From positions 1-28,494 of the IMG/VR virus record IMGVR_UViG_3300032334_001461: DNA of 28,494 bases. One strand, written 5' to 3'. The DNA is from a virus. Shown piece by piece: positions 1 through 16,554 of this stretch (within the stretch, counting starts at the first letter, position 1; each line of letters starts with the position of its first letter). The notes beneath the pieces were generated by a model. The model made no database searches. It was given only the letters and a program-made list of their open reading frames with translations, and was not told the origin of the DNA. A program made the position numbers and the translations under genes.

Positions 1-625
1 AATCAGCTAACACAAAAGCAGGCACACCCGCCAACACACTCTCAGTGGCAGCGATGCTGTTGAAAGTGACCACAGCATGGATGTCAGTCAATGCTGATTG
101 CAAATCATTGGCTACCCTGACTTGTCGATTAGGGTCGCGTGAGCGTGTGACTATTTCACGGTCTGTGTGCTGCTTGATAGTTGCTACCGTTTCCTGTGTC
201 CATTGCTCAAGGTCAATACCATAAAAAACACAAGGCTTTTCGTCGGGCAATGCCAACAGTATCCGGCTGCCATGCTGTCGTCGTGGCATGCCAATATCAT
301 GTTGTTGCCAACGATCAGCTGGCCTAGTGATAACACGATCGTGCTGTAAGTTATTGGGCACTATCCTATGCCACTGTTTCCAACCATGTGGATTTTTAGG
401 ATTGGGCCGATTGCCAACGTATCCTGAATCCATGTAATAAAACGTTCTCTGATCAGTCCAACAGCGTTTGATTATCTTGTGTTTCATTATACCGCGTATG
501 ACCACGGGCTCTGTGCTATCTTGGTAGTTCCATGTTTCTAACTCAGTGGGTGCAGAGCCACAACCACGAGCAAACATTTCAATGTATTCGTCGTTGTTTT
601 TCTTGTTGAGGAATATCCAGTTCAT
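1..625 (-). CDS. Capsule/GT-B-like protein of unknown function, partial (C-terminus outside window)
   Basis: This reading frame is open from its ATG at 625 to the window edge, giving about 208 residues. The start overlaps the stop of the upstream minus-strand gene as ATGA, so the two are translationally coupled. Near the end a segment reading DIHAVVTFNSIAATESVLAGVPAFVLAD resembles the sugar-nucleotide-binding end of capsule-synthesis or GT-B proteins (a conserved Ser/Glu followed by a GVP turn); only the general resemblance is claimed. It shares layout with the protein at 1436-2281: a GxxxNRxNP-type segment, then a QHTDRE/D segment, then HAVV.xNS. This suggests divergent paralogues. A role in modifying a glycan is inferred from the neighbouring glycosyltransferase-like genes. 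No catalytic residue can be assigned. Confidence 0.7.
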   Translation of the reverse strand, partial: MNWIFLNKKNNDEYIEMFARGCGSAPTELETWNYQDSTEPVVIRGIMKHKIIKRCWTDQRTFYYMDSGYVGNRPNPKNPHGWKQWHRIVPNNLQHDRVITRPADRWQQHDIGMPRRQHGSRILLALPDEKPCVFYGIDLEQWTQETVATIKQHTDREIVTRSRDPNRQVRVANDLQSALTDIHAVVTFNSIAATESVLAGVPAFVLAD

Positions 626-1422
626 TGCCAGTAAGATTCTGTGCGCGGCACTTTGAGATCACTAGCAGGACTGCGTCCTGTGTTTTTGCGTTTGCCTTTG
701 AGATGATCTAGATATGCGCCCCAGGCTGAGTTGATCAATGGATGTCCTTCGCCTGTGATAAGATGACCACTCCAATCTATCTGTATAGGAGATATCTTGT
801 GCCGCACCGCATCAAACACAAAACTGTCATGCCATTCATCCAAAGTAAAAATACCTTGTTCAGCATCATCGTACATGCGTTGGAATTCAGTAAGGAACTG
901 TTGTATGTTTGTGGCACCCAAGTTCATTGAATACAGACCACATTCTGAAAACTTACCACGTCTACCTAGGAAACCGAGTTCAGAGTCTTCAGGACAGAGA
1001 CGTTGTAAATCAGCTATAGTTACACGACTATGGCATACAGTATCACCATCCATCCATATCAAGATATCTGCATTGGTGTTTTGGGCACAATGGAATATGC
1101 TGTAGACCTTGTGTGCGAATCGTACTGCGTCCCATTTGAACCCTTTGCCAGCATCACGCCTAAGACTACGCACCGGATCCTGACTCACATCTCCGTTGGC
1201 CTTGGGAACACCCTGCCATCGTTGTTTAAATGCAACAAGATCTGTGCATACCGAAATATCACGCACTGTGAGATTGGGTGCTGTTTCAGTCACAGCGCAG
1301 TTCTCAGCATATACCACAAGATCTACTTCTGCAGGCCATTGGGCTAGGAAAGTCTGAATCATGCGCTGGCCGTATTGTTTATAGCCTGACTGGTTAAAGG
1401 TGGTAACTACAGAGTATTTCAT
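622..1422 (-). CDS. GT-A-fold glycosyltransferase-like protein
   Basis: A 266-residue protein. It has the hallmarks of a GT-A sugar transferase: an N-terminal beta strand (MKYSVVTTFN) and a metal-binding DxD-type motif, WMDGDTVC, with Asp125 and Asp127. A later His/Asp-rich stretch (DEWHDSFVF) fits such enzymes. The C-terminus (GHPLINSAWGAYLDHLKGKRK) is typical of phage sugar-transferase-like proteins, a resemblance judged by eye. I chose the ATG at 1422 rather than the longer frame from 1449 because the extra nine residues would overlap the divergent gene and the TAAATA box. That box lies 7 nt upstream of 1422 and suggests late expression with little or no leader. The acceptor is unknown; phage DNA, virion glycan or host LPS are all possible. 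Confidence 0.75.
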   Translation of the reverse strand: MKYSVVTTFNQSGYKQYGQRMIQTFLAQWPAEVDLVVYAENCAVTETAPNLTVRDISVCTDLVAFKQRWQGVPKANGDVSQDPVRSLRRDAGKGFKWDAVRFAHKVYSIFHCAQNTNADILIWMDGDTVCHSRVTIADLQRLCPEDSELGFLGRRGKFSECGLYSMNLGATNIQQFLTEFQRMYDDAEQGIFTLDEWHDSFVFDAVRHKISPIQIDWSGHLITGEGHPLINSAWGAYLDHLKGKRKNTGRSPASDLKVPRTESYWQ

Positions 1423-1429
1423 AGTGAGA

Positions 1430-1437
1430 TATTTAGT
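1430..1437 (-). promoter_or_regulatory. Putative late promoter (ACTAAATA) for the 622-1422 gene
   Basis: On the minus strand the box ACTAAATA ends 7 nt before the ATG at 1422. It matches the T4 late-promoter core (TATAAATA) in its last six bases and resembles eight other boxes in this window. Transcription would begin close to the start codon, so the mRNA may be leaderless. Confidence 0.5.
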
Positions 1438-2281
1438 GATCAATAACATAGCCTATTTTCCTTCTCAATGTGCCCAAAACAGTCGTCCCGTGATGGCTGC
1501 TGTGCTGGACTATTTTCAGAGCAGCGGTATACAGACACAAGAAAACAGTCAAGATTCGGATGCAGCATTGATCTGGTCAGTGCTGTGGTCTGGCCGCATG
1601 GCACTAAATCGCCAAGTATATGAGCATTATCGCGCTCAGAACAAGCCCGTGATAGTGCTGGAGATAGGTGCGCTGTATCGTGGCCAGACCTGGAAAGTGG
1701 CTGTGAACAACATCACACGCGATGGCTACTATGGACACGAACAAGATCTAGATTGGGATAGGCCCAAGAAACTGAGGATCAGCAAAGCCATAAAGTTTGA
1801 TGGCGACTCCAGTGTGGTCATCGCTGCTCAACATGATCGCAGCCTGCAAGTGGCTGGTCTGAACAATATGACTGATTGGGTCAAGCACAAGATACAACAG
1901 GTGCGTCAGCACACTGACCGCGATATCAAAGTGCGACCACATCCACGTTGCAGATTGGACCTAGCTCAACTACCTAGAGACATTGTGATCGAACAACCAA
2001 AGCCTATGGCCAATACCTATGACAGCTTTGATATGCGGTTTGATTATCATGCTGTAGTAAACCATAACTCTGGTCCCGGTGTGCAAGCTGCCATCGCGGG
2101 TTGTAGACCCATAGTGCATGAGTCCAGTTTGGCGGCACCGGTGGGCATCAGTTTAGCGGATATCGAAAAACCATATGATCGTGATCTTGACACTTGGTTA
2201 GTGCAAATCTGCCACACAGAATACACCCTGGAAGAACTACACGCAGGCACGTGGCTCAAAAGAATACAATCTGCACTGTAA
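1436..2281 (+). CDS. Capsule/GT-B-like protein of unknown function
   Basis: A 281-residue protein read from a GTG at 1436; no in-frame ATG lies near, and the frame open from 1400 would run into the divergent gene. Features seen are an N-terminal strand (NNIAYFP), a segment VIVLEIGALYRG, a VRPHPR motif (the xHP element is seen in CDP-glycerol transferase and KpsS/LipB-like proteins), and a C-terminal NHNSGPGVQAAIAGCRPIVHE segment. The last is the usual shape of a nucleotide-sugar site in GT-B-like proteins. It parallels the protein at 1-625 segment by segment. The start is only 14 bp from that of the divergent glycosyltransferase gene. Function is inferred from family-like motifs and neighbourhood, so the call stays general. 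Confidence 0.65.
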   Translation: MINNIAYFPSQCAQNSRPVMAAVLDYFQSSGIQTQENSQDSDAALIWSVLWSGRMALNRQVYEHYRAQNKPVIVLEIGALYRGQTWKVAVNNITRDGYYGHEQDLDWDRPKKLRISKAIKFDGDSSVVIAAQHDRSLQVAGLNNMTDWVKHKIQQVRQHTDRDIKVRPHPRCRLDLAQLPRDIVIEQPKPMANTYDSFDMRFDYHAVVNHNSGPGVQAAIAGCRPIVHESSLAAPVGISLADIEKPYDRDLDTWLVQICHTEYTLEELHAGTWLKRIQSAL

Positions 2282-2286
2282 GCATC

Positions 2287-2294
2287 AGTAAATA
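2287..2294 (+). promoter_or_regulatory. Putative late promoter (AGTAAATA)
   Basis: The box lies in the 17 bp gap between two genes, and its TAAATA core ends 4 nt before the ATG at 2299. With T4-type initiation a few bases downstream, the transcript would start at or just inside the start codon. No Shine-Dalgarno sequence is visible. Confidence 0.4.
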
Positions 2295-2298
2295 TACA

Positions 2299-2937
2299 AT
2301 GACTATTGATTGGCAAACACACTATCGCGATAACTGGGCCCATAAACTAAACATCAACTTCACTGCCAACCGTGGCCGGGTGATTGACGGCATGTACAAC
2401 AGAGCCATGGGATTTGATCTCATGTTCATGTTGATGTTGAAACATCGCAGCAAAGATTTTGATATCATTGAGACTGGTACCACGAGGACTCCTGACAACT
2501 GGACAGATGGCCAAAGCGCCTTCTTGTTCACCAAGTTCGTGGATTGGCATGGCGGTCGTGTGCGATCAGTAGACATAGATCCTGAAGCATGTGCAGCAGC
2601 AAAATCTCTCATAGCCAGTGAAAAGTTTTCTGTGGACTGTTCGGACAGCGTGGTTTGGCTAAAGCAGCAAACAGATCTTGCCGCAGTGGATCTATTTTAT
2701 CTGGATTCCTGGGATGTAGTATGGGAGGATGATGTGCCCAGCGCAGAACATCATCTCAAAGAGTTCTTGGTCATAGAACCATATCTCAAGCCCGGGGCTG
2801 TGGTCGTGGTTGATGATAACACACGCTGGTGCCACAATCAGCAGCGCACAGGCAAAGGCCGTCGAGTGTTTGAATACTTGGAAGCTAAAAATCATCTTCC
2901 CATATACGATCAATATCAAATAGTGTGGCAGTTCTAA
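2299..2937 (+). CDS. Class I SAM-dependent methyltransferase-like protein
   Basis: A 212-residue protein with the order of motifs expected in small O-methyltransferases of the CmcI/macrocin type. These are IIETGTTR (residues 56-63, glycine-poor motif I), a following DGQSAF helix, VRSVDIDPEAC (88-98, the acidic end of beta 2), VDLFYLDSWD (130-139, motif II) and PGAVVVVDDN (165-174). Motif I lacks the usual GxGxG but matches the ExG start seen in this subgroup. It sits between capsule-like and glycosyltransferase genes, so methylation of a sugar is the likely job, which is an inference. Upstream lies only a TAAATA box and no ribosome-binding site. Its stop codon directly abuts the next ATG. Confidence 0.65.
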   Translation: MTIDWQTHYRDNWAHKLNINFTANRGRVIDGMYNRAMGFDLMFMLMLKHRSKDFDIIETGTTRTPDNWTDGQSAFLFTKFVDWHGGRVRSVDIDPEACAAAKSLIASEKFSVDCSDSVVWLKQQTDLAAVDLFYLDSWDVVWEDDVPSAEHHLKEFLVIEPYLKPGAVVVVDDNTRWCHNQQRTGKGRRVFEYLEAKNHLPIYDQYQIVWQF

Positions 2938-3678
2938 ATGTCTAAAAAAAACAGATTAGTCACTGACCGTCAGCGCCATTGTGCCTGTTTGATACACGGC
3001 GATGGATATGATTGGCGGTATGTGGATAATCTCCACAGCATGATCCGACGGCACATCGATGGCGAACTCAAACTGCATGTGTTTACTGAACATGATCGCA
3101 GCGTGCCACCACACATGATCAAACACAATCTAACAGAATGGCCAGGCATCAAAGGACCAAAGAAAAGTTGGTGGTACAAGATGCAGTTATTCAATCCCGA
3201 GCACTATCACGGAGACTTGCTGTACTTTGATCTTGATGTGGTCATAATGCAGAATATCAGTTGGATGTTCCAGTTAAGCACAGAAAAGTTCTGGGCCATC
3301 AAGGATTTCCGATATCTGCAGAAGGATTCCTACAACTCCATCAACAGCAGCGTGATGTGGTGGAACACCGATCGCTATGCTTGGGTATGGGACAAGTTCA
3401 ACGCTGGCAACATAGAACAGACCATACGGCAGTATCCTGGAGATCAGGATTATCTCAACGCTACCATTGACTACAACGAACGCAGATACATGGAAGCAAA
3501 GTATTTCCAAAGCTATCGTTGGCAAGTGCTGGATGGTGGATACGACTTCCGACGCCGCCGTGCCAATCTGCCAGACACAGGTGCTGAAATCGCCGGCGAC
3601 ACCTCAGTGATCGTTTTCCACGGACAGCCCAAACCCCACGAAGTTCGCGACCCCAAAATACGAAATCTTTGGTGCTAG
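2938..3678 (+). CDS. Glycosyltransferase-like protein with DxD motif
   Basis: A 246-residue protein with a GT-A/GT8-like layout. The N-terminus (HCACLIHGDGYD) leads to LHVFTEHD, and the DxD metal site is in GDLLYFDLDVVIM (Asp98-Asp100). A PGDQDYLNATI segment (GDQD as in GT8-like proteins) and a C-terminal VIVFHGQPKPHE follow, where the His may also bind metal. These motifs are seen in the sequence; the sugar donor and acceptor cannot be told. The ATG follows the stop of the methyltransferase-like gene with no gap, so the two are probably made together. It ends the sugar cluster; 8 bp later the first early-promoter cassette begins. Confidence 0.7.
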   Translation: MSKKNRLVTDRQRHCACLIHGDGYDWRYVDNLHSMIRRHIDGELKLHVFTEHDRSVPPHMIKHNLTEWPGIKGPKKSWWYKMQLFNPEHYHGDLLYFDLDVVIMQNISWMFQLSTEKFWAIKDFRYLQKDSYNSINSSVMWWNTDRYAWVWDKFNAGNIEQTIRQYPGDQDYLNATIDYNERRYMEAKYFQSYRWQVLDGGYDFRRRRANLPDTGAEIAGDTSVIVFHGQPKPHEVRDPKIRNLWC

Positions 3679-3683
3679 ATTCC

Positions 3684-3740
3684 GGTTGACCAGAAATAGC
3701 CATTTTGCTACAATATGGACTTACAGTAAAACAACAGGAG
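3684..3740 (+). promoter_or_regulatory. Early-promoter cassette 1 (TTGACC-17-TACAAT)
   Basis: The -35 TTGACC is at 3686-3691, the spacer is 17 bp, and the -10 TACAAT is at 3709-3714. The block shares the spacer end CCATTTTGCTA and the downstream TTACAGTAAA...CAACAGGAG with cassettes 2 and 3. A strong AGGAG ribosome site precedes the ATG at 3747. Confidence 0.85.
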
Positions 3741-3746
3741 AAGCGC

Positions 3747-3965
3747 ATGGGCTACAAGGTACTGGCAGACCGCTTTGAAATGGACGACATGCGCCAGAAA
3801 TATGGCCCGCGCCCGGGCTTGGAAGGCCCGTTCAACTTCTCAGGGCAGGTGCTGTATTATGACCCCAAAGAGGGCTCTTACTATGACCCGCGCACGGATT
3901 TCTATGTGAGCCGCGACGAAATGGACGCTATTAACCAGCGTCTTTTCCAGAAACTTGCAGGTTGA
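3747..3965 (+). CDS. Small early protein of unknown function (72 aa)
   Basis: I do not recognise this protein. It is 72 residues and acidic/aromatic, with a Tyr-Asp-Pro repeat in the middle (YYDPKEGSYYDPRTDFY) and no membrane segment or signal peptide. The ATG at 3747 is chosen because an AGGAG site lies 7 nt upstream, placed by the promoter cassette. Its stop TGA (3963-3965) is embedded in the -35 box of the next cassette. Being the first of three small genes, each with its own strong sigma70 promoter, it is most likely an immediate-early host-takeover protein; this is inference from position. The coding sequence looks slightly richer in G+C than the sugar cluster before it. Confidence 0.75.
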   Translation: MGYKVLADRFEMDDMRQKYGPRPGLEGPFNFSGQVLYYDPKEGSYYDPRTDFYVSRDEMDAINQRLFQKLAG

Positions 3966-4016
3966 CCAGAAATGGCCATTTCGCTATAATATTGACTTAC
4001 AGTAAACGAACAGGAG
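3960..4016 (+). promoter_or_regulatory. Early-promoter cassette 2 (TTGACC-17-TATAAT) with perfect palindrome
   Basis: The -35 TTGACC is at 3962-3967 and the -10 TATAAT at 3985-3990, with a 17 bp spacer. The spacer contains a perfect 14 bp palindrome, GAAATGGCCATTTC, at 3969-3982, a plausible operator for a dimeric regulator. The TGA stop of the upstream gene lies inside the -35 box. Confidence 0.9.
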
Positions 4017-4021
4017 CCGAA

Positions 4022-4286: not shown

Positions 4287-4344
4287 GGTTGACCGGTATT
4301 GGCCATTTTGCTATAATATTGACATACAGTAAACGAACAGGAGC
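4287..4344 (+). promoter_or_regulatory. Early-promoter cassette 3 (TTGACC-17-TATAAT)
   Basis: The -35 TTGACC is at 4289-4294 and the -10 TATAAT at 4312-4317, with a 17 bp spacer. The spacer keeps the TTGGCCATTTTGC half of the cassette 2 palindrome. The downstream block ACAGTAAACGAACAGGAGC is shared with cassette 2 and supplies the ribosome site for the ATG at 4350. Confidence 0.9.
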
Positions 4345-4349
4345 AGACG

Positions 4350-4562
4350 ATGAGTTGGATACGAGACGGTGAGCATGTGGCGGGCAAGTACATGGACCAA
4401 CTCATTGAGGGCGTGGTGATTGAGAGCCGCGTCAAGTATGGCGGCAAGGTCCAGCTCACGGTGCTGCTGGACAAGCCTATCCAGCTGCGGTGGCGCCCAG
4501 TGGGCGAGCCCCGTAACATCGTGTTAGTGGACACTGACCAAGTGGTCACAGTTCCAGGTTGA
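4350..4562 (+). CDS. Small early protein, probably all-beta (70 aa)
   Basis: A 70-residue protein with alternating hydrophobic strands: EGVVIESRVKYGG, KVQLTVLLDKPIQL, RNIVLVDTDQVVTV. These suggest a small beta-barrel. Short proteins of this shape (an RVKYGGKxQxTVxLDxPI core) occur as unknowns in T4-like phages, as far as I recall; no function is known to me. The ATG has AGGAG 7 nt upstream. It ends in Gly-stop (GGT TGA), and that TGA forms part of the -35 box of the next promoter at 4559-4564, exactly as for the gene at 3747-3965. It is expected to be expressed early. Confidence 0.75.
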   Translation: MSWIRDGEHVAGKYMDQLIEGVVIESRVKYGGKVQLTVLLDKPIQLRWRPVGEPRNIVLVDTDQVVTVPG

Positions 4563-11313: not shown

Positions 11314-12384
11314 ATGTATTCAACCACCGTTTACTTATACCAACAGATAACCAAAGTTTTGTTAGTTGACACCAGTGGTGGATACTTTACAGCGAGGTAC
11401 GATTCAGTGTATGCAAAAACTCTAACCGTGAACAAGGGCGTGGACAACGTGCTATTGTTCGAATTCATAAACCAAGAAGAGAAGCCTGTGAACATCACCG
11501 GAAGCACCTTTGTGTTCCGCTTGATGAATCAAACAGGTGATCAACTGCTGCTGGAAAAACCCATGGTCACCTTGAGTGCTACCCTGGGCAGGGTCAAGGT
11601 GGTTCTGGATATTGAAGACACCATCAACTTTGTGGCACAGCCCGGCAGCTACAGCATACAGCGCACCGCAGGTGATTATGTGCAAGCCGCTTATGTGGAT
11701 GCCAACTCCGGAGCCCGTGCAGATTGCAACATAGTAGACAGCATATTGCCCACCTTTGTGCCTAGCGAAATGCTGACCATTCCTACCATATACGGCAAGG
11801 CACAGCAACTGGTTCCTGGACCTACCAACTGGCCTGACTGGGCTTTGTATCCACAGCCCGTGAATACCACACAGCTCACAGAGTTCTTCTCCAGCCAGAT
11901 TCCCACCAATGGACAGGCATTGACCACTGTGAAGATGGACCTGGATCACTTCACAGGCACTATCAAGTTCCAGGCTGCTGAAAACTATGAGTCAGTTTGG
12001 TATGATGTCACAGCCAGCTACACATACCTCAATGAGACCAGCACCCAATATTTCAATGTGGTAGGTTTCTATCCTTTGATCCGGGCAGCATTCAACAATA
12101 GCCAAGGTTTTGGAGCGCAGGCCACAGCCGTGGTCACAGATGGAGTGATCACTGCCATCAACGTCACCAACGCTGGACAGGGTTATGTGGCACCACCCAA
12201 GGTGCAGATATTGGGTGATGGTGCAGGCGCAGAAGCCATAGTCACAAGTGTGGGCAATGGCCAGATTGGCGCCATTGAAGTGATCAATGGTGGATCGGGT
12301 TACTTGCCATTGCAGTACCAAGGCACAGTATGTGCCCAGGTCCTGATCTCTACAGGTTACATAACTAATCTCCAATATCGTTGA
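11314..12384 (+). CDS. Virion structural protein with glycine-rich repeats
   Basis: A 356-residue beta-rich protein. The N-terminal part (about 30-145) has strands and the phrase NVLLFEFINQEEKPVNITGSTFVFRL. That is reminiscent of BppU-type baseplate domains, which accept polymer-like linkers; the resemblance is by eye. Near the C-terminus lie two copies of a repeat (about 272-302 and 309-336) of the type GxIxAIxVxNxGxGY, typical of phage tail-fibre and neck proteins. The late promoter and the GAGG site just upstream fit a virion protein. Which particle part it belongs to cannot be told. Its stop TGA (12382-12384) lies inside the -35 box of the primase promoter. Confidence 0.75.
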   Translation: MYSTTVYLYQQITKVLLVDTSGGYFTARYDSVYAKTLTVNKGVDNVLLFEFINQEEKPVNITGSTFVFRLMNQTGDQLLLEKPMVTLSATLGRVKVVLDIEDTINFVAQPGSYSIQRTAGDYVQAAYVDANSGARADCNIVDSILPTFVPSEMLTIPTIYGKAQQLVPGPTNWPDWALYPQPVNTTQLTEFFSSQIPTNGQALTTVKMDLDHFTGTIKFQAAENYESVWYDVTASYTYLNETSTQYFNVVGFYPLIRAAFNNSQGFGAQATAVVTDGVITAINVTNAGQGYVAPPKVQILGDGAGAEAIVTSVGNGQIGAIEVINGGSGYLPLQYQGTVCAQVLISTGYITNLQYR

Positions 12385-12409
12385 TCCAGTCTGGCATCTA
12401 TGCTATAAT
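12381..12409 (+). promoter_or_regulatory. Sigma70 promoter of primase (TTGATC-17-TATAAT), predicted leaderless
   Basis: The -35 TTGATC is at 12381-12386, the spacer is 17 bp, and the -10 TATAAT is at 12404-12409. The ATG at 12416 begins 6 nt after the -10. The stop codon of the upstream structural gene forms part of the -35 box. This lets an early or middle gene be read independently of the late gene before it. Confidence 0.82.
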
Positions 12410-12415
12410 AACTAG

Positions 12416-13378
12416 ATGCTAAATATCCTGAGTTACTTGCCGGCCCGACGCAAACAGACACCTTCTGGTTGGATCAGTTTCAACTGCGCCGTGTGCCAAG
12501 AAAAACGCAGTCGTGGCGGCATCAAGGTCTCAGACCAGGGCTGGAGCTTTCACTGTTTCAACTGCGGCTACACAGCCAGTTTCATCCTAGGTCGTAATCT
12601 CAGCATCAAAGCGCGACAGCTATTGAAACATTTCAATGTGCCCGAGCGTGATATTGAGATGCTGAATCTGGAAAGCCTCAAGCATCGCAGCATACATGGC
12701 CTGCTGGAAGACCGGCAGCGGGTGTGGAATCAACTGGCTGCTATCACATTCGAAGAAAGAGATTTGCCACCCCACGCATCGTTGTTGGTGGACGAGAAAC
12801 CATACAGGGGGTATGTGCGCAGCAGAGCAGTGCCAGATGATTACCCCATAATGATACAGACAGAAAATGACAATGTGCATTGGACCAGGCCGCATGTGGT
12901 GATACCATTCACCTATGACAACAGCATAGTGGGTTACACCTGTAGATTCCTGGACAATCGTATACCCAAATATATCAGCGACACCCAGCCGGGCTATGTG
13001 TTTGGCACAGATCTTCAACACGCTGATTGGACGCAGGCCATAGTGGTTGAAGGCATATTTGATGCACTCAGTATCAGCGGCTTGGCTGTGATGCACAATA
13101 GTATCAATGACGCACAGGTCAGGCTCATACGCAGCTTGGGCAAAGAGATCACAGTGGTGCCCGATCAAGACTTGGCTGGCCTGGACTTGGTAGATCGTGC
13201 TGTGGAACTGGGCTGGGCAGTAAGCATGCCCAACTGGCCTGCGGATATCAAAGACGTGAATGATGCTGTGATACGCTGGGGTCGGTTAACGACCTTGCTA
13301 ACTATATTCGAAGCCAGAGAAACCAGCAGGATCAAGATAGAACTACGGAGAAAGCAACTTGTTAAAAGACTACGATAG
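12416..13378 (+). CDS. 61: DNA primase, gp61-like (DnaG/TOPRIM type)
   Basis: A 320-residue primase close to the size of T4 gp61 (342 residues). An N-terminal zinc ribbon has Cys24-x2-Cys27 and Cys47-x2-Cys50. The TOPRIM core follows: the VVEGIFDALS motif with the catalytic Glu212, and PDQDLAG with Asp250 and Asp252, after a VVIPFTYDNSIVGYTCRF strand set. Primase makes the RNA primers for the lagging strand together with gp41 helicase, whose gene lies just downstream. The reading frame ends KQLVKRLR. If the inserted SGNH gene is removed, this frame would continue one residue further into the old gp41 junction, so the native C-terminus has probably been trimmed by one residue. Confidence 0.9.
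   Translation: MLNILSYLPARRKQTPSGWISFNCAVCQEKRSRGGIKVSDQGWSFHCFNCGYTASFILGRNLSIKARQLLKHFNVPERDIEMLNLESLKHRSIHGLLEDRQRVWNQLAAITFEERDLPPHASLLVDEKPYRGYVRSRAVPDDYPIMIQTENDNVHWTRPHVVIPFTYDNSIVGYTCRFLDNRIPKYISDTQPGYVFGTDLQHADWTQAIVVEGIFDALSISGLAVMHNSINDAQVRLIRSLGKEITVVPDQDLAGLDLVDRAVELGWAVSMPNWPADIKDVNDAVIRWGRLTTLLTIFEARETSRIKIELRRKQLVKRLR
13359..13374 (+). repeat. Left copy of 16 bp direct repeat flanking the SGNH gene
   Basis: TTGTTAAAAGACTACG is identical to 14066-14081; the bases on either side differ. This copy encodes the end of primase in one frame and the TTG start plus first residues (LKDY) of the SGNH-like gene in another. Confidence 0.95.
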
Positions 13379-14072
13379 GCTTTGGGTTTTTGGCGATAGC
13401 TATAGTACACCAAATATTTGTGTTACTCCACGAGAAAGTTTTTGGGGATTGACTGCTGCTGCATTGGATGTCGATACTGTGATTAACTGTAGCAGACCTA
13501 AAATAAGTTTTGATAGTGTGTGTCAAATGTTAGTAGGTGAACAGCAAAGATACAACTTTGGTCAAGACTTTTTTATTATTGGTTTGCCACCACTAGAAAG
13601 AATTACCATATTTGACGACTACAGAGACACAGCACTGGTAAGTTCTATATTTGATACAAAAACGTGGCAAACAGTAACTGTCAATGTTGCAAGTCATCAC
13701 GGATTGATAAATTTGCAGTACAAGGAACTTGATCGATTGTCGGTGTTGATTAGTGATCGTAGTTGGATAGAAACTCAAGTTTTGCGACAGATATTTTTAA
13801 TCACTCAGTGGTTAGATTCCTGTAACGCTAACTACATCATTGTAAATCTCAGTAAAAATTTAAATGCGAACAATCGCTGGGGACCAAGTCAATACATATT
13901 AGACTATTGCTTGAATCACAACAGATGTAAATTGTTTGACGGCTCTATGTATGATGTCAACTTGAATATCAACAAGCCAAGCGATTACAATGAATTTGGA
14001 TGGCATGGGCACCACGGACCTGCTGGCAACAAACATTTTTTTGAAACAAGCGTAAAGGACAAACTTTGTTAA
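13359..14072 (+). CDS. Inserted SGNH/GDSL hydrolase-like gene
   Basis: A 237-residue protein with an N-terminal LWVFGDSYS block: the GDS motif of SGNH hydrolases, Ser14 the likely nucleophile. A C-terminal WHGHHGPAGNKHFFE block resembles block V, where His is the base, though the usual DxxH spacing is not exact. The Gly and Asn blocks are hard to place. Such enzymes often remove acetyl groups or cleave esters on sugars. The gene is markedly AT-rich compared with primase and helicase on either side. It starts with TTG in a 16 bp repeat (20 bp overlap with primase), and its TAA stop lies in the second copy (7 bp overlap with the helicase). It looks recently inserted; no mobility gene is present. 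Confidence 0.75.
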   Translation: MLKDYDRLWVFGDSYSTPNICVTPRESFWGLTAAALDVDTVINCSRPKISFDSVCQMLVGEQQRYNFGQDFFIIGLPPLERITIFDDYRDTALVSSIFDTKTWQTVTVNVASHHGLINLQYKELDRLSVLISDRSWIETQVLRQIFLITQWLDSCNANYIIVNLSKNLNANNRWGPSQYILDYCLNHNRCKLFDGSMYDVNLNINKPSDYNEFGWHGHHGPAGNKHFFETSVKDKLC

Positions 14073-14081
14073 AAGACTACG
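14066..14081 (+). repeat. Right copy of 16 bp direct repeat flanking the SGNH gene
   Basis: This copy is identical to 13359-13374. It provides the TTG start and first five codons of the gp41 helicase and, in another frame, the TAA stop (14070-14072) of the SGNH-like gene. Confidence 0.95.
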
Positions 14082-15463
14082 GACTTGATGTCCAGCGATT
14101 ATTCCTAGAAATGATGTTGGAGGACGCACAGAGCTATGTGCGTGTGCAGAACATCTACAATCCAGAAAACTTTGATCGCAGCCTGAGATCAGCAGCTGAG
14201 TTCATCAAAGAGCACTCAGACAAACACAAGACCATGCCCGACAGGACGCAGATTTCTGCGGTCACGGGTATCAAGCTAGACTCTGTACCGGACTTGAACG
14301 AAGGTCACTTTGAATGGTTCATGACCGAGTTTGAATCATTCACCAAGCGCCAAGAACTAGAGCGTGCCATCCTCAAAGCAGCAGACATGCTGGAGAAGGG
14401 TGACTTTGATCCCGTGGAGAAACTGATCAAGGATGCGGTGCAGATCAGCTTGACCAAGGACATGGGCACAGACTATTGGGCCGATCCCAAGGCTCGTATC
14501 AACAAATACTTCAACTCAGGTGGACAAGTCAGCACAGGTTGGCCACAAATGGATCGATTGCTGTATGGTGGCTTCAGCAGGGGCGAGCTCAATATCTTTG
14601 CCGGTGGATCGGGCTCAGGCAAATCACTTGTGATGATGAACATAGCCCTGAACTGGTTGCAGCAGGGACTCAGTGGTGTGTATATCACGCTGGAACTTAG
14701 TGAAGAACTCACCAGCTTGAGAACAGATGCCATGCTCACCAACATGAGCACCAAGGACATTCGCAAGGACATTGATACCACAGAGCTTAAGGTCCGGATG
14801 GTGGCCAAGAAGTCCGGACAGTACAGGGTCAAGGGATTACCCGCACAGAGCAACATCAATGATATCCGCAGCTATTTGAAAGAAGTGCAGATACAGACTG
14901 GCATACGAGTGGACTTTGTGATGGTGGATTACTTGGACTTGTTGATGCCCGTGAGCGCTAAAGTCAGCCCCAACGACTTGTTTGTGAAGGACAAGTATGT
15001 GAGTGAAGAACTGCGCAACTTGGCCAAGGAACTGGGTATATTGATGGTCACAGCAAGCCAGTTAAACAGATCGGCGGTGGAAGAGATTGAGTTTGACCAC
15101 AGCCACATATCGGGTGGTATTAGTAAGATTAACACAGCGGATAATGTGTTTGGTATCTTTACCAGCAGGGCCATGAAAGAGCGGGGCAAGTATCAGATCC
15201 AGTGTATGAAAAGTCGTAGTTCAACAGGTGTGGGACAAAAGATCGACTTGGAATACAATATTGAGACCATGCGCATCACAGATGCTGGTGGCGACGATAA
15301 TGATCTTATGAGTAGAAAGCCCGGGCCCAACATCATGGACAGTATCAAAGCTCGTAGCCAGATAAAGCCTGTGGAGGACAATTTGGTTGACACGCCAAAG
15401 ATCTCAGCAGATGTGCAGAGCAACAAGCTCAAACAGTTATTGGGCCAAATCAAAGCGTCATGA
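14066..15463 (+). CDS. 41: Replicative DNA helicase, gp41-like (DnaB family)
   Basis: A 465-residue helicase of the DnaB/gp41 kind (T4 gp41 has 475). The N-terminal helical domain (1-130) is followed by a RecA-like motor: GGFSRGELNIFAG leading into Walker A GGSGSGKS (180-187), a glutamate-bearing YITLELSEE, Walker B VDFVMVDYLD (282-291), and the SQLNRSAVEE segment with the sensor residues. It forms the hexamer that unwinds DNA at the phage fork and binds gp61 primase. The start is TTG at 14066, within the direct repeat; no better start lies nearby. A weak or absent Shine-Dalgarno sequence suggests coupling to the upstream gene, which the insertion has preserved. Confidence 0.93.
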   Translation: MLKDYGLDVQRLFLEMMLEDAQSYVRVQNIYNPENFDRSLRSAAEFIKEHSDKHKTMPDRTQISAVTGIKLDSVPDLNEGHFEWFMTEFESFTKRQELERAILKAADMLEKGDFDPVEKLIKDAVQISLTKDMGTDYWADPKARINKYFNSGGQVSTGWPQMDRLLYGGFSRGELNIFAGGSGSGKSLVMMNIALNWLQQGLSGVYITLELSEELTSLRTDAMLTNMSTKDIRKDIDTTELKVRMVAKKSGQYRVKGLPAQSNINDIRSYLKEVQIQTGIRVDFVMVDYLDLLMPVSAKVSPNDLFVKDKYVSEELRNLAKELGILMVTASQLNRSAVEEIEFDHSHISGGISKINTADNVFGIFTSRAMKERGKYQIQCMKSRSSTGVGQKIDLEYNIETMRITDAGGDDNDLMSRKPGPNIMDSIKARSQIKPVEDNLVDTPKISADVQSNKLKQLLGQIKAS

Positions 15464-16554
15464 CCAACATGTATTGTTCAGAAATACATGGTGGATTGCA
15501 TCTCGTGTTCCCGCCAAATTCCCACTCGCCGCTGGTACAACATTGTTGCTTAAGAAATGATCTATGGCCAGCTCAAAAGGAAGGTAACTTTTGGCATGAT
15601 CCAAAGTTCCAACCATTGAGGCTTAAACAACATTGGGATCCGGGATGCTTACAATGTAAACGAATAGAGGACTCTGGTAATCAAAGTTTGAGAACTGGTA
15701 TGAATGAAGGACTCGAAATATATCCTTATACCAATCTGTCAGGACCTGCTAGGATAGATCTCATGTTTGATAAAAGTTGTAATCTTGCCTGTAGGACTTG
15801 TGGCACACACAGTAGCACTTTTTGGCAAAAGTATTTACAACAACCAGTCGTGCCAAGCCAGGACAAACAACAGGTAATCTCAGCACTACAGCGATTGGAT
15901 CTTTCCAATCTGCGTATGTTGGTATTCTGCGGTGGAGAAACATTACTAGGACAAGAATATTGGGATGTGGCTGAATGGCTGGGAGATAACGTGCCCAACG
16001 CCAAACAGCAGTTGACCTTGTGTTTCCAGACCAATGGCACACAGCCCATACATGCTCGCAACCACCATATCATTGACAAGTTTTTCTTGGTCAAGCTTCA
16101 TTTCAGTCTAGATGGTGTAGGCTCAAAGTTTGAATACCTGCGCTGGCCAGCTTCGTGGTCGCAGGTCACAGACAACATATTGAACATCCGGAGCACTGTG
16201 CCCTCTAATGTGATGTTCCTGGTAGAGGAAACTGTATCCATATTCAACCTGGCAAGTCTTGATGAGTTGGACACTTGGATCAAACAAAACTTCACTACCA
16301 ATCGCGAGGGTGATTTGGTGAATCACACAAGACACATGGCCAAGGGTATTTTCGCATTAGATAACTGTAGCCAGGAGTATGTGGATTGGGCTGCTGATCA
16401 ACCTGTCAAGAACTTCATAAGCAAACAATGGAAAGAGTCACCAACAGAAATCACAGCCATGCTCAACGAGATAATCCAGCACGATCGCCAGCGCAATCAG
16501 CAGTTTTCTTTGGTGTTTCCTAAACTAGCTGAGTTCTATGCTAGATTTTTATAA
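15460..16554 (+). CDS. Radical SAM protein, twitch-domain type
   Basis: A 364-residue protein. The radical SAM motif Cys107-x3-Cys111-x2-Cys114 (KSCNLACRTCG) binds a 4Fe-4S cluster that cleaves SAM. VFCGGETLL is the GGE motif for SAM, and CFQTNGTQ plus LHFSLDGVG follow as the later barrel strands. An upstream HCCLRND...PGCLQCKRIEDSG region (Cys29, 30, 63, 66) is typical of the twitch-type proteins found in phages, as I recall. The substrate is unknown; peptide or nucleotide modification are both possible. It overlaps gp41 as ATGA. Its need for an Fe-S cluster links it functionally with the iscU and iscA genes in this window, which is an inference. Confidence 0.85.
   Translation: MTNMYCSEIHGGLHLVFPPNSHSPLVQHCCLRNDLWPAQKEGNFWHDPKFQPLRLKQHWDPGCLQCKRIEDSGNQSLRTGMNEGLEIYPYTNLSGPARIDLMFDKSCNLACRTCGTHSSTFWQKYLQQPVVPSQDKQQVISALQRLDLSNLRMLVFCGGETLLGQEYWDVAEWLGDNVPNAKQQLTLCFQTNGTQPIHARNHHIIDKFFLVKLHFSLDGVGSKFEYLRWPASWSQVTDNILNIRSTVPSNVMFLVEETVSIFNLASLDELDTWIKQNFTTNREGDLVNHTRHMAKGIFALDNCSQEYVDWAADQPVKNFISKQWKESPTEITAMLNEIIQHDRQRNQQFSLVFPKLAEFYARFL

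Follow-up and report, generated by a model that had tools for sequence, protein, structure and literature searches.

A doubled gene overlap flanks variable genes at the primase/helicase junction of uncultured lake-water phages

Introduction

It has long been asked how tailed phages can add genes among closely packed essential ones and do no harm. Phage morons are single A+T-rich genes that lie between core genes and carry their own promoter and terminator, and integron gene cassettes are promoterless single genes that can be stacked in tandem at one site. In the hyperplastic regions of T4-like phages, variable genes are found between core genes (PMC2984593, PMC2993671), and these variable junctions typically lack the sequence signature of known mobile elements (PMC2993671). 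For lambdoid phages, short conserved boundary sequences at module junctions are cited in the comparison of Cluster I mycobacteriophages (PMC3029335). In that comparison, gene 68 of mycobacteriophage Island3 is bounded by a direct repeat of about 50-60 bp at two 3' ends, Brujita, which lacks gene 68, has a single copy of the repeat, and one event is described.

Here we describe the junction between the gp61-type primase gene and the gp41-type helicase gene in a group of uncultured lake-water phages. Dozens of relatives show this one junction, variously empty, with a single unit, with a swapped unit or with two. What is new is that an overlap of essential genes forms the repeat, that it supplies start codons, that unrelated genes reuse it and that they are stacked. 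A literature search found no earlier description of such a case where primase and helicase overlap. The window referred to below is the whole stretch of DNA analysed, 28,494 nucleotides of IMG/VR record IMGVR_UViG_3300032334_001461.

Results

The 16-mer TTGTTAAAAGACTACG occurs in the window as two exact copies at 13359-13374 and 14066-14081, spaced by 707 bp, with a 237-codon open reading frame between them, as a preliminary description of this DNA had reported. There is no third copy in the window with up to two mismatches allowed (chance expectation, 0.01 matches), and no comparable repeat surrounds any other single gene of the window. All features of the locus are on the + strand. A promoter-like site found by consensus scan just 5' of primase (TTGATC-17-TATAAT, 12381..12409) probably drives a primase-insert-helicase operon. 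The gp61-type DNA primase with its Toprim domain (12416..13378; phrog_47, 3e-33; Pfam Toprim_2 above cut-off) has its last codons in the left repeat copy (13359..13374), which lies at a homologous position in relatives. This copy contains the primase codons CTT-GTT-AAA-AGA-CTA-CG, read as LVKRL(R), and in another frame the TTG start of the insert, read as MLKDY; the primase stop TAG (13376-13378) is just beyond the repeat. The 3' end of the inserted gene (13359..14072) includes a stretch (14051..14065) with a Shine-Dalgarno-like AAAGGA that, judged from the letters, may serve gp41 when the junction is occupied, a role that TAAGGA in the primase tail may play in empty relatives. The right copy (14066..14081) contains the gp41 start TTG at 14066 (MLKDY) and the insert stop TAA at 14070-14072. 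The frames thus agree with the earlier proposal that the left copy completes primase and starts the insert, and that the right copy ends the insert and starts gp41, a DnaB-like replicative helicase (14066..15463; phrog_19, 4e-70; Pfam DnaB_C). The proposed collapse of one unit also holds, as it leaves a primase that ends in QLVKRLRT, a tail found in eight empty relatives.

A radical SAM gene (15460..16554, + strand; Pfam Radical_SAM below cut-off; phrog_14086) follows gp41 and lies in a second, adjacent variable slot between the helicase and the next core gene, the small gene D1. Across 81 loci, the first gene in this slot is the radical SAM gene D2 in 27 and a member of another radical-SAM-like family (D5) in 10, D1 follows directly in 16, and the rest vary; many genes in this slot begin with a short start/stop overlap. 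Elsewhere in the window, three 61-nt copies (3684-3744, 3960-4020 and 4287-4347), 85-90% alike, lie before short open reading frames. Each consists of a TTGACC-17-TATAAT-like promoter and an AGGAG ribosome site, with a fourth similar promoter at 4559, and they are possibly a repeated regulatory module. At the left end (622-3678) there is a run of overlapping genes that resemble glycosyltransferase and methyltransferase genes.

The insert had been described as A+T-rich, and its composition is foreign to its neighbours: its G+C is 0.374 and its GC3 0.35, compared with G+C of 0.506 and 0.485 and GC3 of 0.58 and 0.62 for its two neighbours. Only 0.5% of the 690-bp windows in this DNA have a G+C as low. 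It is, as in morons, a gene of deviant composition between core genes that are adjacent in relatives. The best promoter candidates on the + strand of the insert match at only 9 of 12 positions, and no + strand terminator was found in it. In the absence of a convincing promoter or terminator, expression of the insert by translational coupling is plausible.

At gathering level the insert protein has no match in Pfam or PHROG, and it has no meaningful sequence match to solved structures. In a Foldseek search, its AlphaFold2 model (mean pLDDT 78) resembles TesA (probability 0.96, E 0.045, TM 0.49/0.61) and, with E about 1e-6, proteins of phages that bear the name SGNH_hydrolase, suggesting an SGNH/GDSL-like fold. 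Among 18 sequences of the insert family, Ser14 is invariant, and the GDS motif (residues 12-14, block I near the N-terminus) is present in all but one. The GHHG motif (residues 217-220, with H218 and H219) and D209 are invariant in the family, and the exact DxxH spacing is absent. The cassette protein is probably an SGNH-type esterase. Searches for relatives of this family (SGNH-A) in cellular genomes and in cultured phages found none. In viral contigs that reach far enough to judge its position, SGNH-A was found only at the primase/gp41 junction.

Loci from relatives were gathered by the helicase alone (80 loci) and, separately, by the insert. They come from short-peptide pattern searches and many are fragments; near-copies were counted and identical junctions merged. 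Among the helicase-selected loci, 73 of 80 could be scored, with 43 empty, 14 containing SGNH-A and 16 containing other genes. The group has 38 distinct empty junctions, and in every one primase overlaps gp41 by 23 nt and a single copy of the 16-mer is present; two of these copies are identical to the 16-mer of the window. Their primase tails are QLVKRIRT (12), QLVKRLRT (8), ALVKRIRT (7) and variants of these. Relatives without the SGNH gene had been expected to show the collapsed form, with primase directly overlapping gp41, and every single-copy junction resembles it; nearly all SGNH carriers keep recognisable flanking repeats. A search of viral contigs with an exact pattern for near-identical relatives of the window's left junction found none. 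In the outgroup Pseudomonas phage PA5oct (48% helicase identity), primase, helicase and D1 are adjacent without a cassette, and therefore the ancestor was likely empty.

On the helicase tree (98 rows, careful search), the junction switches between empty and occupied about 24 times (bootstrap 23-25), and well-supported branches force at least 15 of these changes. The 78 distinct occupied junctions, including the window, contain 13 insert families as defined by mutual BLAST. As judged by these comparisons, the primase/gp41 junction appears to be a recurrent cassette slot and not the site of a single insertion event, and cassette losses probably occur as well.

Eight families, F1 (SGNH-A), F2, F4 (radical SAM), F5, F6, F7, F10 and F11, have members that start at offset +0, at precisely the TTG that lies within the end of primase, and with first codons derived from the site (LLK.Y-like). 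Their motifs suggest that F1, F6 and F11 could be distant relatives of the SGNH type; no kinship beyond this possible link was detectable among the eight. Members of F2 begin with L(L/S)K(N/K)YNK(K/R)VILF in first position and with MYKHQVILF as a later gene, and members of F10 in second position likewise begin differently. Exceptions are F3, part of F5, and F12, which start 3-92 nt further downstream, and seven loci (L005, L021, L022, L045, L052, L062 and L137) with a poor left copy or a start further downstream. We also considered that inserts are recruited ad hoc from elsewhere in the genome. With short peptide patterns and limited search depth, SGNH-A was at this junction wherever its position could be judged, as were the relatives of F2 and F4 that were found, and this origin was rejected. 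Separately, we note a weak match (1.7e-5) of the insert of L072 (129-665) to phrog_2297 (DNA endonuclease), the only nuclease-like label among the inserts.

Three loci (L090, L095 and L163) contain two SGNH-A units in tandem, with the repeat at each start and a spacing of 707 or 704 bp. Identity between tandem partners is only 48-51%, and the two types joined in L163 are those that occur singly in L024 (82%) and L023 (78%). These arrays are therefore combinations and not fresh duplications. L024 and L090 differ in their cassettes but have helicases that are 98.8% identical, and the two sequences become alike again a few codons into gp41 at most. The last cassettes of L090 (2775-3584) and L023 (3529-4335) read through the gp41 start and end in HAKR(I/L)RT, the out-of-frame ending that is also seen in primase at empty junctions. 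A different SGNH-like insert, in L054 (2711-3415), has a C-terminus of its own, RKNLVKRLRS, that copies the tail of primase and thereby extends the doubled stretch at that locus.

The synonymous divergence (dS) between the window and L086 is 0.58 for the insert, 2.02 for primase and 2.68 for helicase (near saturation). The insert is likewise less diverged than its flanks in L071, L074, L079 and L081. Fourfold divergence confirms this contrast in seven relatives, with 0.21-0.35 for inserts and 0.55-0.67 for helicase (46 carriers). Since the dS of the insert is far below the 2.0-2.7 of its flanks, the comparison indicates that the insert of the window moved laterally. Against L086, the left step in identity is at the 16-mer and the right step is about 100 bp inside gp41.

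The 16-mer is the core genes' own overlap: it contains the end of primase and the codons with which gp41 begins, its start codon included, and a Shine-Dalgarno-like stretch lies immediately before it. Across relatives, this short conserved sequence is found at both edges of the module and is degenerate in part of the junctions. The exact repeat of the preliminary description stands for the window and fails as a general rule, since the copies are identical in only 3 of the 78 occupied junctions (the window, L130 and L149); most differ by 2-5 mismatches, and some by up to 10. By comparison, when the right copy is matched to other positions in the preceding 700 bp, the best hit has 4-8 mismatches. 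The two copies of one genome do not resemble each other significantly more than copies taken from different genomes do (permutation p 0.13). The similarity persists because the left copy is held by primase and the newcomer, and the right copy by gp41. As the copies are under coding selection and are not homogenised, their exactness is no proof of recent insertion. Recent gene conversion between the two copies of the window was considered and dropped, given the two other exact pairs and the permutation result.

Discussion

Empty and occupied states, repeated changes between them, lateral movement, a common start of several families and tandem units can be read directly from these loci. Our main reading, with a probability of roughly 80%, is that the junction is a cassette slot, and that recombination between related phages brings in units of overlap plus gene, removes them, exchanges them and stacks them. 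When the junction is empty, primase at its 3' end and gp41 at its 5' end would share one dual-coded stretch that includes the gp41 start and the ribosome-binding region, and in the occupied state this stretch would lie on both sides of the extra gene. The left copy would complete primase and donate a start codon and the first five or so codons to the newcomer; the right copy would restore the gp41 start and terminate the newcomer. A unit of one overlap copy and a gene body could then move through the flanking core genes and through the short overlap itself, and selection would keep the overlap-doubled products because only those leave both essential genes intact. We infer the recombination route, and also its agent, presumably the phage's own recombination system.

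More tentatively, the overlap may be a seam for cassette capture that needs no integrase, its initiation module (ribosome site, TTG and five codons) doubling as a recombination site. If so, an incoming frame in register would receive a start codon at once with both essential genes intact, and the general recombination of the phage could add units, swap them and stack them in the manner of integron cassettes. The left step of the window, the edge between L024 and L090 and the tandem seams speak for exchange at the 16-mer, and the lack of homogenisation speaks against it.

Four points count against the slot model: there is no positive sign of recent exchange from repeat to repeat (p 0.13), the seven loci named above have a poor left copy or a start further downstream, the right identity step of the window is inside gp41 and not at the repeat, and recombination through primase and helicase alone could spread existing cassettes without the 16-mer. 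The likeliest alternative, to which we give somewhat less than even odds, is that the repeat is idle in movement and cassettes spread only by homologous recombination through primase and helicase. Each copy is indeed constrained by coding, as both neighbours need the overlap, and copies are not homogenised within genomes; mosaic steps lie inside primase and helicase in L038 and L048, and the right step of the window is about 100 bp inside gp41. However, an idle repeat gives no account of how the overlap came to be doubled when unrelated genes first entered, why tandem units are joined exactly at the repeat, or why the edge between L024 and L090 is at the gp41 start.

It is less likely that the occupied state is ancestral and that empty junctions are independent deletions between overlap copies. 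Short direct repeats are well known to give rise to deletions, in this case with an exactly functional product, and SGNH-A is common across the group, with no other locus found for it. Yet PA5oct has no cassette at the junction, many different genes occupy the same place, and the insert of the window is younger than its flanks.

We consider it very improbable that a homing endonuclease, transposon or other mobile element inserted the gene and left the 16-mer as a target-site duplication. The site and the repeat length are fixed in the window, and T4-type phages have many free-standing homing endonucleases, but what is repeated is the overlap of the host genes themselves, gene-specific codons included, and a scan of 11 insert proteins found no HNH, GIY-YIG, LAGLIDADG, transposase or integrase family, the weak PHROG label in L072 being the one nuclease-like hit. 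None of these families was found in the insert of the window, itself a fragment of the phage genome, in line with the earlier statement that it contains no endonuclease or transposase. Finally, an assembly or chance artefact, conceivable for a single metagenomic contig, is ruled out by the relatives, as dozens of independent contigs have the same gene at the same site with a similar repeat, and by the 0.01 16-mer matches expected by chance.

Returning to the slot model, its signature is the gene overlap itself, and therefore gain, loss and start-codon capture are directly testable. We suggest searching elsewhere for overlapping pairs of core genes whose overlap is doubled around a variable gene.

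Among known systems, this locus shares with T4-like hyperplastic regions the variable genes between T4-type core genes, and it differs in that the junction carries a clear signature. As in morons, a single A+T-rich gene lies between core genes that are adjacent in relatives; unlike morons, the insert lacks a convincing promoter and terminator and seems to rely on the operon and on translation signals that overlap. Like integron cassettes, promoterless single genes are stacked in tandem at one site, but no integrase family was found in the insert, nor was an attC-like structure found, and the seam is ordinary coding sequence. The closest precedents are phage boundary sequences and the insertion of Island3 gene 68. 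With the lambdoid boundary sequences the locus shares a short common sequence at a gene border where modules differ, whereas here this sequence is dual-coded and doubled, and occupancy ranges over empty, one or two units. With Island3 and Brujita it shares an extra gene that is present or absent in close relatives and a short repeat that codes for a neighbour's end; here, in contrast, the repeat is the overlap of two essential replication genes and gives start codons, and it serves many unrelated genes in turn as well as tandem units.
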